From: Ilumatobacter coccineus YM16-304
Lineage (GTDB): Bacteria > Actinomycetota > Acidimicrobiia > Acidimicrobiales > Ilumatobacteraceae
Length of the DNA: 64,000 nt
Direction of reading: 5' to 3'
NCBI RefSeq assembly: GCF_000348785.1
Contig: NC_020520.1
Location: 3,286,001 to 3,350,000 of the forward strand
The notes beneath the pieces are model-generated. The model made no database searches, was not told the DNA's origin, and saw only the letters and a program-made list of their open reading frames with translations. This document shows positions 16,591-20,802 of this stretch, piece by piece. The position numbers were made by a program, and so were the translations under genes. Numbering within the stretch: position 1 is the first letter of the stretch; the number at the start of each line of letters is the position of its first letter.

Positions 16591-17994
16591 TCAGCCGTTG
16601 AAGTTACGACCGGTGAGGGAGAGCACGGTTTCACCGAACAACTCACTCAAACTCGGGTGGGGTTGGATAAATTCCGCGACCTCGTCGACGGATGCTTCCC
16701 AGTTGACGGCCAGGTAGCCGCCGGAGAGCTGCTCGGTGACCCACGGGCCGACCATGTGCACGCCGAGGATCTGGCCGGCCGAACCATCGGCGTTCTTCTT
16801 GGCGATGATCTTGACGAGGCCTTCGGTCTCACCGACGATCATGGCGCGGCTGTTGAACTTGAACGGGTGCTTGGCCACCACGACGTCGTGACCGGCGTCT
16901 TTGGCCTGCTGCTCGTCGGGGCCGGCCCAGGCGACTTCGGGGTGGCAGTAGATCGCCCACGGCACCCGGTCGTACATGACCGGCATCGGGCTCTCGCCGA
17001 GGATGTGCTTGATGACCAGGATCGCCTCGGCGTAACCGACGTGCGCGAGCTGCGGGGTGTTGATGAGGTCGCCGACGGCGTAGACGCCCGGCTCCCCGGT
17101 CTGGCAGTACTCGTCGACCTCGACGAACCCGCGATCGCTGACCACGACCTGCGTCCCCTCGAGCCCGAGCTGGTCGGAGAAGGGGCGACGGCCGACCGAC
17201 ACGACCACGGCGTCGACCTCGACCGACTCACCGTCGCCGAACGACACCGTGGTGCCGCCCGAGTCGTTGGGGGTGTGGCCGTTGACCATCACGCCGGTCT
17301 TGATGTTGATCTTCTTCTTCTTGAACGAGCGCTCGACGACCTTGGCGACGTCTTTGTCGAGGCCCGGCAGGATCTTGGGGAGACCCTCCAAGATGGTCAC
17401 TTCAGCACCGAGGTCGGCGAACGTCGAAGCGAACTCGCAGCCGATGGCGCCGCCGCCGATGACGGCGACTCGTGAAGGCACCTCGCTGAGGTCGAGCACC
17501 TCGTCGGAGGTCATGATCGGGCCACCGCGCTCGAAGTTGGGGATCAGTCGCGGCACGGAGCCGGCGGCCAGGATGACGGCGTCACCGGTGATGGTGGCGC
17601 TGCCACCGTCGTTCATGGCGACGTTGACGGTGCGTCCGGCACCGAGGGCGCCGACGCCGTTGAACACTTCGACCTTGCGGCCCTTGCACATGGAGGCGAT
17701 ACCGCCGACCAGCGTGGCGACGATGCCCTGCTTGCGCTCCTGGGTGCGTGCGAAGTTGACCGAGGCCTCGCCACCGCTCTCGATGCCGAAATCGGCAGCG
17801 TGATCGACGTGGCGCTTCACCGCTGCGGTCTCGAGGAAGGCCTTGGCGGGGATGCATCCACGGTTCAGACAGGTGCCACCCAGTGCATCCTTCTCGACGA
17901 GGGCCACGTTGAGCCCTGCCGAAGCTCCGTAGAGAGCGGCCGAGTATCCACCCGGGCCACCACCGATAACGACGACGTCAAAATGATCACTCAC
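16591..17994 (-). CDS. lpd: dihydrolipoyl dehydrogenase (E3)
   Basis: 467 residues. FAD-binding GGGPGGYSAALYGASAG at 11-27, redox-active GGTCLNRGCIPAK near 40-50, NAD-binding GGGAIGCEFAS near 180, and the C-terminal His-Glu pair in HPHPSLSELFGE. It reoxidises dihydrolipoamide of E2 with NAD+. Start GTG 17994 has TACCGT (18003-18008) 8 nt upstream, pointing to a leaderless mRNA. First gene of the lpd-E2-lipBA unit; 50 nt separate it from E2. Confidence 0.95.
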   Translation of the reverse strand: MSDHFDVVVIGGGPGGYSAALYGASAGLNVALVEKDALGGTCLNRGCIPAKAFLETAAVKRHVDHAADFGIESGGEASVNFARTQERKQGIVATLVGGIASMCKGRKVEVFNGVGALGAGRTVNVAMNDGGSATITGDAVILAAGSVPRLIPNFERGGPIMTSDEVLDLSEVPSRVAVIGGGAIGCEFASTFADLGAEVTILEGLPKILPGLDKDVAKVVERSFKKKKINIKTGVMVNGHTPNDSGGTTVSFGDGESVEVDAVVVSVGRRPFSDQLGLEGTQVVVSDRGFVEVDEYCQTGEPGVYAVGDLINTPQLAHVGYAEAILVIKHILGESPMPVMYDRVPWAIYCHPEVAWAGPDEQQAKDAGHDVVVAKHPFKFNSRAMIVGETEGLVKIIAKKNADGSAGQILGVHMVGPWVTEQLSGGYLAVNWEASVDEVAEFIQPHPSLSELFGETVLSLTGRNFNG

Positions 17995-18480: not shown

Positions 18481-18906
18481 TCAGGACGCGAGGTTCCAGT
18501 TGGCCTGTTCGTCGCCGCGACGCACGATGAGCGTGCGGTTGGTCGAGGCCACACCTTCGAGCCCGAAGTCGAGCGTGCACGTCTGGGCCTCGACCGTGAT
18601 GGTCGTGCAGCGCCCCTCGGCCGGCAGCGACGTGGCCTCGAGCCGCCCGTCACCGGTCACCAGCCGGATGCTGTCGGTCGACGGGTCGTCGACGCCGGCA
18701 AGCGTGACCTCGACACTGAAGAAGTCGGAGCTCTCCGATGCGGACAGCACGGTGATCGACAGGTCACCGACCACGACCTCGTCGCCGACCTGCGACGGCT
18801 CGACCGCGTCCTGCTGGCCGGACAGCTGGAACAGCAGCACACCGCCGGCGAGCAGGATCGCCAGCGCGGTTCCGACCGAGAGCAACAACAGCGTTCGCGT
18901 CTTCAT
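18481..18906 (-). CDS. membrane-anchored or secreted hypothetical protein
   Basis: 141 residues. An N-terminal hydrophobic segment (LLLLSVGTALAILLAGGVLLF) serves as anchor or uncleaved signal. A beta-rich extracytoplasmic domain follows with two Cys that could pair (RCTTITVEAQTCTLDFG). TAGGCT lies 9 nt before the ATG. It is divergent from the probable selenoprotein lipoprotein gene, both being envelope proteins. No family recognised. Confidence 0.7.
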   Translation of the reverse strand: MKTRTLLLLSVGTALAILLAGGVLLFQLSGQQDAVEPSQVGDEVVVGDLSITVLSASESSDFFSVEVTLAGVDDPSTDSIRLVTGDGRLEATSLPAEGRCTTITVEAQTCTLDFGLEGVASTNRTLIVRRGDEQANWNLAS

Positions 18907-19117: not shown

Positions 19118-19780
19118 ATGATCGCTCGTCCGACGACTCGCGTCGCAGCTGCCGTCGCCGGGCTCGCGCTCGTCGCCGCGTCGTGCGGCGGCGGCGACTC
19201 CGCCGACCCGGCCACCACCGACGCCACATCGACCGCCACCGCGCCGAGCACCGATGCGCCAGCCGGCGCCCCGGCCGATACGGCGGATCCCGCCACCGAT
19301 GCTCCGGACGACACCGCCGCAGACGCCGCCACCGCAGACGCCGCCCCGGTCGACGACACGGCAACCGCCCCTGCCGCCGTTCCGGCGGCGCTCCAGTTCA
19401 GTGCTCCGCTGGTCGGTGGCGGCGAGATCGACGCAACGACCCTGGCCGGTACGCCCACGGCGTTCTGGTTCTGGGCACCCACTTGAAGCATCTGCAACCG
19501 TGAAGCTCCCTCGGTCGAGGAAGCAGCAAACAAGTTCGCCGGAACCGTCGACTTCGTCGGCGTCACCTGGACCGGCACCGACAGCTCGTACCAGGCGTTC
19601 ATCGACGAACACGGACTGACCTTCCCGCAGATCCAAGACGACGACGCCGAGGTGTTCGCCCACTTCGACGTCGCCTTCCAACCGGCGCTGGTGATCGTCA
19701 AGGCCGACGGCAGCATCGAGACGGTCGCCGGAGCGGTCGACGAGACCCTGCTCGACCAGATCATCTCCGAATCGATCTGA
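19118..19780 (+). CDS. probable selenoprotein: thioredoxin-fold lipoprotein (MPT53/DsbE-like) with UxxC active site
   Basis: 220 residues if UGA at 19484-19486 is read as selenocysteine. A lipobox (LALVAASC, Cys near 22) is followed by an Ala/Thr/Asp linker of about 70 residues and a TlpA/DsbE-like domain. Before the UGA the frame reads FWFWAPT; after it, SICNREAPSVEEA, with Cys126. Aligned to the canonical FWxPWCPxCxxEAPS, the UGA (residue 123) falls exactly on the first active-site Cys. The frame stays open 97 more codons with the expected GVTW strand, cis-Pro segment FQPALVIVKADG and C-terminal helix. A hairpin with GGUC loop follows. The alternative is a TGC-to-TGA nonsense mutation; a naive annotation would stop at residue 122. 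It would act in the envelope on thiols or disulfides. Confidence 0.75.
19484..19525 (+). promoter_or_regulatory. UGA recoding site with candidate bacterial SECIS hairpin
   Basis: Downstream of UGA (19484-19486), CCTC (19509-19512) pairs with GAGG (19517-19520) around a GGTC loop. It is extended by GCT/AGC (19505-19507 and 19522-19524) across one C.A mismatch. The loop begins 26 nt after the UGA, within the spacing bacterial SelB hairpins use, and the GGUC recalls the E. coli fdhF loop. Folding was judged by eye. Confidence 0.6.
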
Positions 19781-19908: not shown

Positions 19909-20802
19909 ATGCGCATCGCCATCACCGGTTCATCTGGCCTCGTCGGAACGGCGCTCGGCAAGCGGTTGACCGACGACGGTCACGACGTGGTGCCCGTGGT
20001 CCGCCGCCAGCCTTCCGACAACGAGATCGGCTGGTCGGTCGAGGAGAACCGCATCGACGACGGGGCGTTCGACGGCATCGATGCCGTGGTCCACCTCGCC
20101 GGGGCGGGCATCGGCGACAAGCGATGGACCGACGACTACAAGCGCACGCTGCTCGAGAGTCGGACGATCGGCACCGCACTGGTGGCCGAAGCGATCAACA
20201 GCGCCGCCAACCCACCGTCGGTGCTCCTGTCGGGTTCGGCGATCGGCTACTACGGCTCCGACCCGAGCGCCACGTTCGACGAGACCAGCGCGAGCGGAAG
20301 CGGCTTCCTCGCCGACCTGTGCGGAGCGTGGGAGGCGGCCGCCGCTCCCGCTCAGATCGACGGCACCCGGGTCGTGTACCTGCGTACCGGCATCGTCCTG
20401 TCGGCCGACGGCGGCGCCCTCAAGAAGCAACTCCCCCTCTTCAAGTTCGGGCTCGGCGGCAAGATGGGCAACGGCGAACAGTGGCAGAGCTGGATCTCGA
20501 TCGACGACGAGGTCGGGGCCATCGTCCACCTGTTGACCAGCGACGTGGTCGGCCCCGTCAACCTCACCGCGCCGAACCCGGTGACCAACGCCGAGTTCAC
20601 CGACACCCTCGGCGCGGTGCTGAAGCGCCCCACGTTCCTGCCGATTCCGAAGTTCGGACCCAAGCTGCTGCTCGGCAGCGAACTCGCCGACAACCTCCTG
20701 TTCAGCGGCCAGAAGGTGATGCCGACCGTGCTGCAGAACGACGGCTACGAGTTCGTTCACCCCGACCTCGCCTCCGCGTTGCGCGCCCAACTGAGCACGT
20801 GA
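19909..20802 (+). CDS. TIGR01777-type NAD(P)-dependent epimerase/oxidoreductase
   Basis: 297 residues. Rossmann motif ITGSSGLVGTAL at 4-15, then VVHLAGAGIGDKRW near 60, LLSGSAIGYYG near 105 (the SDR Tyr), and the C-terminal signature LTAPNPVTNAEF and P(T)FLPIPKFG. This extended-SDR subfamily (YfcH/SulA-like) is widespread but its substrate is not established. ATG 19909 has TACTCT 6 nt upstream. The stop overlaps the start of the flavin oxidase gene as GTGA, so the two are coupled. Confidence 0.9.
   Translation: MRIAITGSSGLVGTALGKRLTDDGHDVVPVVRRQPSDNEIGWSVEENRIDDGAFDGIDAVVHLAGAGIGDKRWTDDYKRTLLESRTIGTALVAEAINSAANPPSVLLSGSAIGYYGSDPSATFDETSASGSGFLADLCGAWEAAAAPAQIDGTRVVYLRTGIVLSADGGALKKQLPLFKFGLGGKMGNGEQWQSWISIDDEVGAIVHLLTSDVVGPVNLTAPNPVTNAEFTDTLGAVLKRPTFLPIPKFGPKLLLGSELADNLLFSGQKVMPTVLQNDGYEFVHPDLASALRAQLST

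Follow-up and report, generated by a model that had tools for sequence, protein, structure and literature searches.

The closest described systems to the gene reported here are MPT53 (Mt-DsbE, structure 1lu4) and Mt-DsbF (3ios) of Mycobacterium tuberculosis, extracytoplasmic disulfide oxidoreductases which are presented in passages of PMC3853704 as oxidants that fold hirudin and that also both reduce insulin. In the same passages a DsbD-like or related membrane protein is thought to be the partner of DsbE and DsbF, and VKOR is proposed for DsbA. Selenoproteins with a UxxC motif are already known from the same superfamily: Table 1 of PMC13188914 records thiol-disulfide isomerase-like (cd02966), Prx-like (PF00578) and redoxin (PF08534) members, and a passage of PMC2398784 records the Trx-like 1 protein (COG0526). 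The comparison with these TlpA/Prx-like and Trx-like 1 selenoproteins was made by description only, and the predicted selenocysteine (Sec) lipoprotein described below adds to them. Among open-licence papers, none was found that combines selenoprotein with either Ilumatobacter or MPT53, and a search for Acidimicrobiia with selenocysteine returned a passage of PMC5649159 in which SelA and SelB are mentioned in sponge symbionts.

The window analyzed here is a stretch of 64,000 nucleotides from Ilumatobacter coccineus YM16-304, whose genome is a single contig of 4,830,181 bases (4.83 Mb). Positions refer to the window unless a contig is named. The gene of interest and the parts of its product are as follows.

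19118..19780, forward strand: UGA-containing gene for a predicted UxxC thioredoxin-fold lipoprotein of 220 residues (ATG at 19118, stop TGA at 19778-19780)
19118..19186, forward strand: predicted signal peptide and lipobox (VAAS-C) with Cys 23 as the predicted site of lipidation, from a relaxed lipobox pattern
19187..19387, forward strand: low-complexity Ala/Thr/Asp/Pro linker, the length of which varies among relatives
19388..19777, forward strand: MPT53/DsbF-like thioredoxin-fold domain, from Pfam, solved relatives and predicted structure
19484..19486, forward strand: UGA codon, very probably read as selenocysteine (residue 123), at the place of the attacking Cys in the homologue alignment
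19493..19495, forward strand: TGC codon of the second Cys of UxxC (residue 126), invariant in the alignment
19682..19684, forward strand: codon of Pro189 at the thioredoxin cis-Pro place (QPA), invariant in the alignment

The frame contains a single internal TGA, and a count of the codons between it and the stop confirmed the 97 sense codons given in the initial annotation. Under the standard code the frame ends at this TGA, ahead of the active site, giving a product of 122 residues, which is the truncation that the annotation had anticipated. When the frame is read through, the active site is WFWAPT-U-SI-C, so that U-S-I-C forms the UxxC motif, and the UGA falls at the first active-site Cys of both MPT53 and DsbF. 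The best Pfam match of the read-through protein was AhpC-TSA (E=5.2e-14, 52.7 bits against a cut-off of 26), followed by Redoxin and thioredoxin, and the protein thus carries a PF00578-type domain with UxxC. By sequence its best solved relatives were MPT53 (7.2e-22) and DsbF (2.5e-21). The structure predicted for the domain (pLDDT 95.4) matched DsbF with a Z of 24.8 and an rmsd of 1.2 over 133 aligned residues (36% identity) and MPT53 with a Z of 23.4 and an rmsd of 1.4 over 131 aligned residues (33% identity). The predicted domain is the same as that of MPT53 and DsbF from end to end, with the WFW motif, the layout of the active centre and the QPA segment in common; the thioredoxin fold, the WFW-x-P-x-C-x-x-C place and the Pro opposite to it are all found. 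Pro189, in the cis-Pro segment that the initial annotation had pointed out, and the second Cys were invariant in an alignment of 29 rows, and we take Pro189 to be in the cis state from what holds for the thioredoxin family.

Unlike MPT53 and DsbF, the protein would have Sec in place of the first Cys, so that it lacks the two active-site Cys residues of that branch, and it has a predicted lipid anchor, a long linker and a SECIS-type hairpin within its gene. Judged by sequence and predicted fold, it is a Sec variant of the MPT53/DsbF branch and not a standard CxxC member. A lipobox was present in 28/28 UGA loci when a relaxed pattern was used and alternative start codons were tried, which agrees with the lipoprotein assignment of the initial annotation and points to an exported, probably lipid-anchored protein. 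ResA, CcmG and StoA have the same thioredoxin-fold layout; ResA came next in fold after DsbF and MPT53 (Z 21.0), and these proteins are farther from the Sec protein than MPT53 and DsbF in both fold and sequence. ResA (NF002854) was the best NCBIfam match at 54.6 bits against a cut-off of 170, which does not make the protein a member, and its score was likewise below the StoA cut-off (210). Three further families which are thioredoxin-like and by their names include or are related to selenoproteins, were rejected on their scores: NF053656 (TUGYCR; 17.9 bits, cut-off 100), NF040769 (SelL-related; 11.7 bits, cut-off 120) and NF040730 (SaoT; 11.9 bits, cut-off 65).

We consider it very probable that Sec is inserted at UGA 123 and that the protein is a UxxC thiol-disulfide oxidoreductase, a degree of confidence which does not extend to the direction of the reaction. 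Anchored by its lipid, the exported protein would belong to the MPT53/DsbF branch of thiol-disulfide oxidoreductases and work outside the membrane, with Sec123 attacking or receiving a disulfide to give a selenenylsulfide which Cys126 would then resolve. Such a protein would presumably be a strong thiol-disulfide catalyst, as had been suggested from the motif. We favour disulfide exchange with envelope proteins, for which a CcdA/DsbD-like membrane protein would be the likely redox partner. Two CcdA/DsbD-like genes were found in the genome, one of 38.9 bits at C1:3551029 and one at C1:4344297 whose 25.3 bits fall short of the cut-off of 27.1, and a search of the same genome for VKOR gave no match, a gene content which would fit the partners thought to serve DsbE and DsbF in M. 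tuberculosis. VKOR was found in 10 of the 60 genomes searched for homologues of the gene, three of them among the 30 carriers of the UGA form and one of these three below the cut-off. It occurred in 6 of the 13 genomes in which selA and tRNA-Sec were both missing and in 4 of the other 47 (one below cut-off), a difference which may be mere relatedness.

Both an oxidizing and a reducing role are compatible with the Sec lipoprotein. The alternative that it is a real selenoprotein which works mainly as a reductase (ResA/CcmG-like, or in reductive repair) or as a thiol peroxidase is a serious contender, which we hold at somewhat less than even likelihood if Sec is indeed inserted. The CcdA/DsbD-like genes and the scarcity of VKOR would suit such a role as well, but the gene at C1:4344297 adjoins a separate CxxC ResA-like paralogue, and a DsbB-like oxidant gene (63.2 bits) is also present in the genome. 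ResA as the next fold and as the best NCBIfam match, though one far below its cut-off, speaks for a reductase, yet MPT53 and DsbF, which a passage of PMC3853704 describes as oxidants folding hirudin, are closer by sequence and by fold, and the three neighbouring genes scanned were not cytochrome c genes. A peroxiredoxin was considered because AhpC-TSA and Redoxin were the top Pfam matches, and was set aside as the main function since the UxxC layout and the nearest structures point to thiol-disulfide exchange.

The absence of the Sec machinery had been named in advance as the observation that would count against a selenoprotein, and selA (413 bits), selB (275 bits) and selD (369 bits) were all found in the genome above their curated cut-offs, with selB adjoining selA. 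A tRNA-Sec was detected at 66.5 bits (gathering score 47), and ARAGORN independently called a tRNA for SeC with the anticodon tca. The selD gene itself contains an in-frame UGA within a UxxK motif, the motif given for Sec-SelD in a passage of PMC13188914.

C1:2441028-2441951 (L018), reverse strand: selD gene whose UxxK motif (GAGUGCK) contains an in-frame UGA, from a profile match and the translation

Elsewhere in the genome (C1:213303-213881, reverse strand; L050, 1004-1582) another thioredoxin-like gene was observed that has an in-frame UGA (WMWAPHUSIC) and begins with a lipobox-like sequence. A gene of locus L149 has a similar motif, WLWAPHUPYC, and shares a stretch of 8.4 kb with a Cys member of the MPT53/DsbF-like lipoprotein family.

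The search for homologues covered 60 genomes, the organism's own and those of relatives, and a homologue with one in-frame UGA was found at E<=1e-20 in 30 of them among the matches listed. The best rows of this search gave 30 loci (L020-L049), the window's own gene included, in which the codon at exactly the place of the first active-site Cys was UGA in 28 and Cys in 2. This result and the coordinates of the codon bear out the statement that the UGA replaces exactly the first Cys, and the homologues carry either Cys or UGA at that codon. Among the 28 UGA loci, 27 had a stop 95-106 codons after the UGA; the frame of the other, L024, leaves its contig 84 codons after the UGA. A class-wide search of 296 genomes, from the best rows of which 30 loci were returned, revealed UGA homologues in further families, and the codon was checked in 16 further distinct genes. 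Viral contigs were also scanned for relatives and none were found.

Presence of the UGA form followed that of the Sec machinery. Among the 30 UGA-carrying genomes selA was found in 29, the exception being G015 (90% complete), which has tRNA-Sec, and tRNA-Sec was found in 28, the exceptions being G005 (69% complete) and G032 (63% complete), so that selA and/or tRNA-Sec were detected in 30/30. Conversely, none of the 13 genomes lacking both selA and tRNA-Sec had a UGA homologue at E<=1e-20 among the matches listed (Fisher p=4.6e-5 for machinery against UGA homologue, with related genomes treated as independent).

Downstream of the UGA we identified a predicted RNA hairpin of the bacterial SECIS type.

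19505..19524, forward strand: SECIS-type hairpin of 3+4 bp around a 1x1 mismatch with a GGUC loop at 19513-19516, from its place, covariation and the contrast with Cys genes

The bacterial SECIS rule of PMC13188914 (Fig. 2) asks for a loop of 3-9 nt with G in the first two places, an upper stem of 4-16 bp, a distance of 16-37 nt from UGA to loop and an MFE <= -7.5. The hairpin (GCU-C-CCUC-GGUC-GAGG-A-AGC) agrees with this rule in its 4-nt GGUC loop, its 4-bp upper stem, its distance of 26 nt and its energy of -8.0 kcal/mol (nt 22-41). The generic rule was non-discriminating because it fired in 76/86 distinct Cys genes as well as in 45/45 distinct UGA genes. Single-sequence folds of the UGA region were no better than shuffles (z 0.19, -0.01 and 1.08), 35 of 1000 base shuffles of the 20-nt hairpin alone folded as well as it or better, and RNAalifold run on an alignment of 44 rows did not return the hairpin but another, very weak fold (-0.43 kcal/mol). 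The case for the hairpin is built on its fixed place, its covariation and its contrast with the Cys genes, and not on energy.

The 45 UGA genes in this comparison were the 28 loci of the 60-genome search, 16 from the class-wide search and one gene in L149, with loci L050-L054, among them the organism's own paralogue and a second G022 copy, kept out of the count. The 86 distinct Cys genes consisted of the best 80 of 495 peptide-pattern matches and 6 genes from related genomes, and they are not a random draw because these 80 are the best matches of the pattern scan. An apical stem of 4 bp whose loop opens with GG was present at the fixed place in 36 of the UGA genes and in none of the Cys genes (p=4e-24, with related genes treated as independent), and all 7 pairs could be formed in 33/45 and 1/86, respectively; nine of the 45 UGA genes were without the hairpin in this exact form. 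Covariation was counted in 44 of the UGA genes, L149 being left out. Standard pairs filled 91.9% of the pair cells compared with 33-59% in slid versions, both sides had changed in 25 cells (shuffled mean 4.8), and covariation scored 0.328 compared with 0.131 when shuffled, neither of the last two values being reached in any of 500 shuffles. The compensatory changes can be seen where the stem CCUC:GAGG is replaced by CUUC:GAAG or by GUGC:GCAU. Two-sided changes were seen in 4 pairs, a count that 82 of 500 shuffles also reached.

With its loop 26 nt past UGA 123, the hairpin would recruit SelB carrying Sec-tRNA-Sec, and insertion of Sec would replace termination at this codon. It was also observed that the codons for PSVE which follow the active site (window 19508-19519) are nearly frozen as CCC TCG GTC GAG in most UGA genes, and that both residues and codons vary at this place in the Cys genes. 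This suggests that the RNA hairpin fixes a protein motif which the Cys relatives seem free to vary. The hairpin that had been described after the gene stop did not hold up: the region 3' of the stop is a GC-rich inverted repeat with a folding z of -1.13, which is not unusual, no terminator-like site lies there, and a scan of the locus for promoters and terminators found none.

With machinery, Cys and UGA homologues and a SECIS-type hairpin with compensatory changes in hand, the proposal of a UxxC selenoprotein stands, and we regard it as a real one because the same codon and RNA signal have been kept in dozens of relatives. That the gene might instead be a pseudogene, in which a nonsense mutation struck the active-site codon and left the downstream frame as a relic, would accord with the early end of the standard-code frame and with the presence in the same genome of Cys paralogues without an internal stop which could cover the function. 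This explanation is highly improbable in view of the UGA that 28 of the 30 returned loci share at this codon, the UGA homologues in half of the 60 genomes among the matches listed, the covarying hairpin, and dN/dS values after the UGA of 0.05-0.32 (10 pairs, with synonymous sites near saturation in some), which place the codons 3' of the UGA under purifying selection. The initial annotation had also judged a chance nonsense mutation the less likely reading, and the recurrence of the UGA and the purifying selection support that judgement.

It is just as hard to credit that an ordinary amino acid and not Sec is placed at the UGA, whether by general recoding (e.g. UGA=Trp) or by leaky readthrough. 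The frame would be open under any code in which UGA has a sense meaning, but UGA serves as the terminal stop in 25 of the 28 UGA loci, the window's gene included, and the genome has the Sec machinery. Furthermore, the UGA aligns with the catalytic Cys, the hairpin after it occurs in none of the 86 Cys genes at the corresponding place, and no UGA homologue was found, among the matches listed, in the 13 of 60 genomes where selA and tRNA-Sec were both missing. A sequencing or assembly error which turned TGC or TGT into TGA, a general possibility with nothing more in its favour, can be ruled out for practical purposes because the UGA homologue recurs in 30/60 genomes (matches listed) and the UGA form is spread over separate genomes of many genera.

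Returning to the Sec reading, the relation between the two forms of the gene was followed in a tree of the 45 UGA domains and 33 of the 86 Cys domains. The tree required 4 state changes compared with 25.3 when labels were shuffled, and the UGA state is therefore clustered, yet not confined to one clade; at least 2 of the 4 changes were forced by well-supported branches. Genome G024 has both forms in tandem, the Cys copy just ahead of the UGA copy (L051, C154:60526-61728). The Cys copy is without the hairpin, having UCUACCGUCCAGU at the place of the window's CCCUCGGUCGAGG, and in a smaller tree it fell inside the main UGA clade as sister to its UGA neighbour (98/88). Forcing the UGA rows together in that tree cost 17 log units, with a borderline AU test (p=0.066). 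The smaller tree, designed after the big tree had been seen, was made from the G024 Cys copy together with 33 UGA rows and 8 hand-picked outgroup rows, with UGA row L042 placed among the outgroup and with L070 and ten UGA rows numbered above L071 left out. The likely history of the pair in G024 is a duplication followed by a change from Sec back to Cys in one copy.

The genes around the Sec gene recur in the order lpdA, a 141-residue protein, the Sec gene and an epimerase.

16591..17994, reverse strand: dihydrolipoamide dehydrogenase-like gene (lpdA), a syntenic marker named from its translation without a family search
18481..18906, reverse strand: divergently transcribed gene for a 141-residue protein, a candidate partner or substrate, with a predicted N-terminal helix, a predicted beta-rich domain and two invariant Cys
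19909..20802, forward strand: NAD-dependent epimerase/DUF1731 gene, a syntenic marker from a profile match and synteny, which we take to be YfcH-like

Of the 28 UGA loci, 20 had an lpdA-like sequence and 12 had the epimerase within flanks of up to 1.5 kb. A search of 32 UGA loci, that of the window among them, found the 141-residue neighbour in 24, and C100 and C110 were invariant in all 24. It has a predicted N-terminal helix of 28 residues, the remainder is predicted to be beta-rich, and a comparison with Pfam gave no match. From its position and its two invariant Cys the neighbour is a candidate redox partner or substrate of the Sec lipoprotein. That the Sec lipoprotein and this predicted membrane-anchored protein work in the envelope as a redox pair dedicated to each other and peculiar to this group of actinobacteria is a speculative proposal which we think rather unlikely as it stands. 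If it were true, the selenocysteine enzyme would make, break or use the disulfide of the 141-residue neighbour.

Since standard-code annotation ends the protein before its active site, a conserved actinobacterial catalyst is probably missing from databases or truncated in them. With dozens of UGA genes, most of which have the hairpin, Cys genes which are without it and one tandem pair of the two forms, the family offers a natural experiment on the use of Sec, and it points to an unstudied 141-residue neighbour as a possible redox partner.
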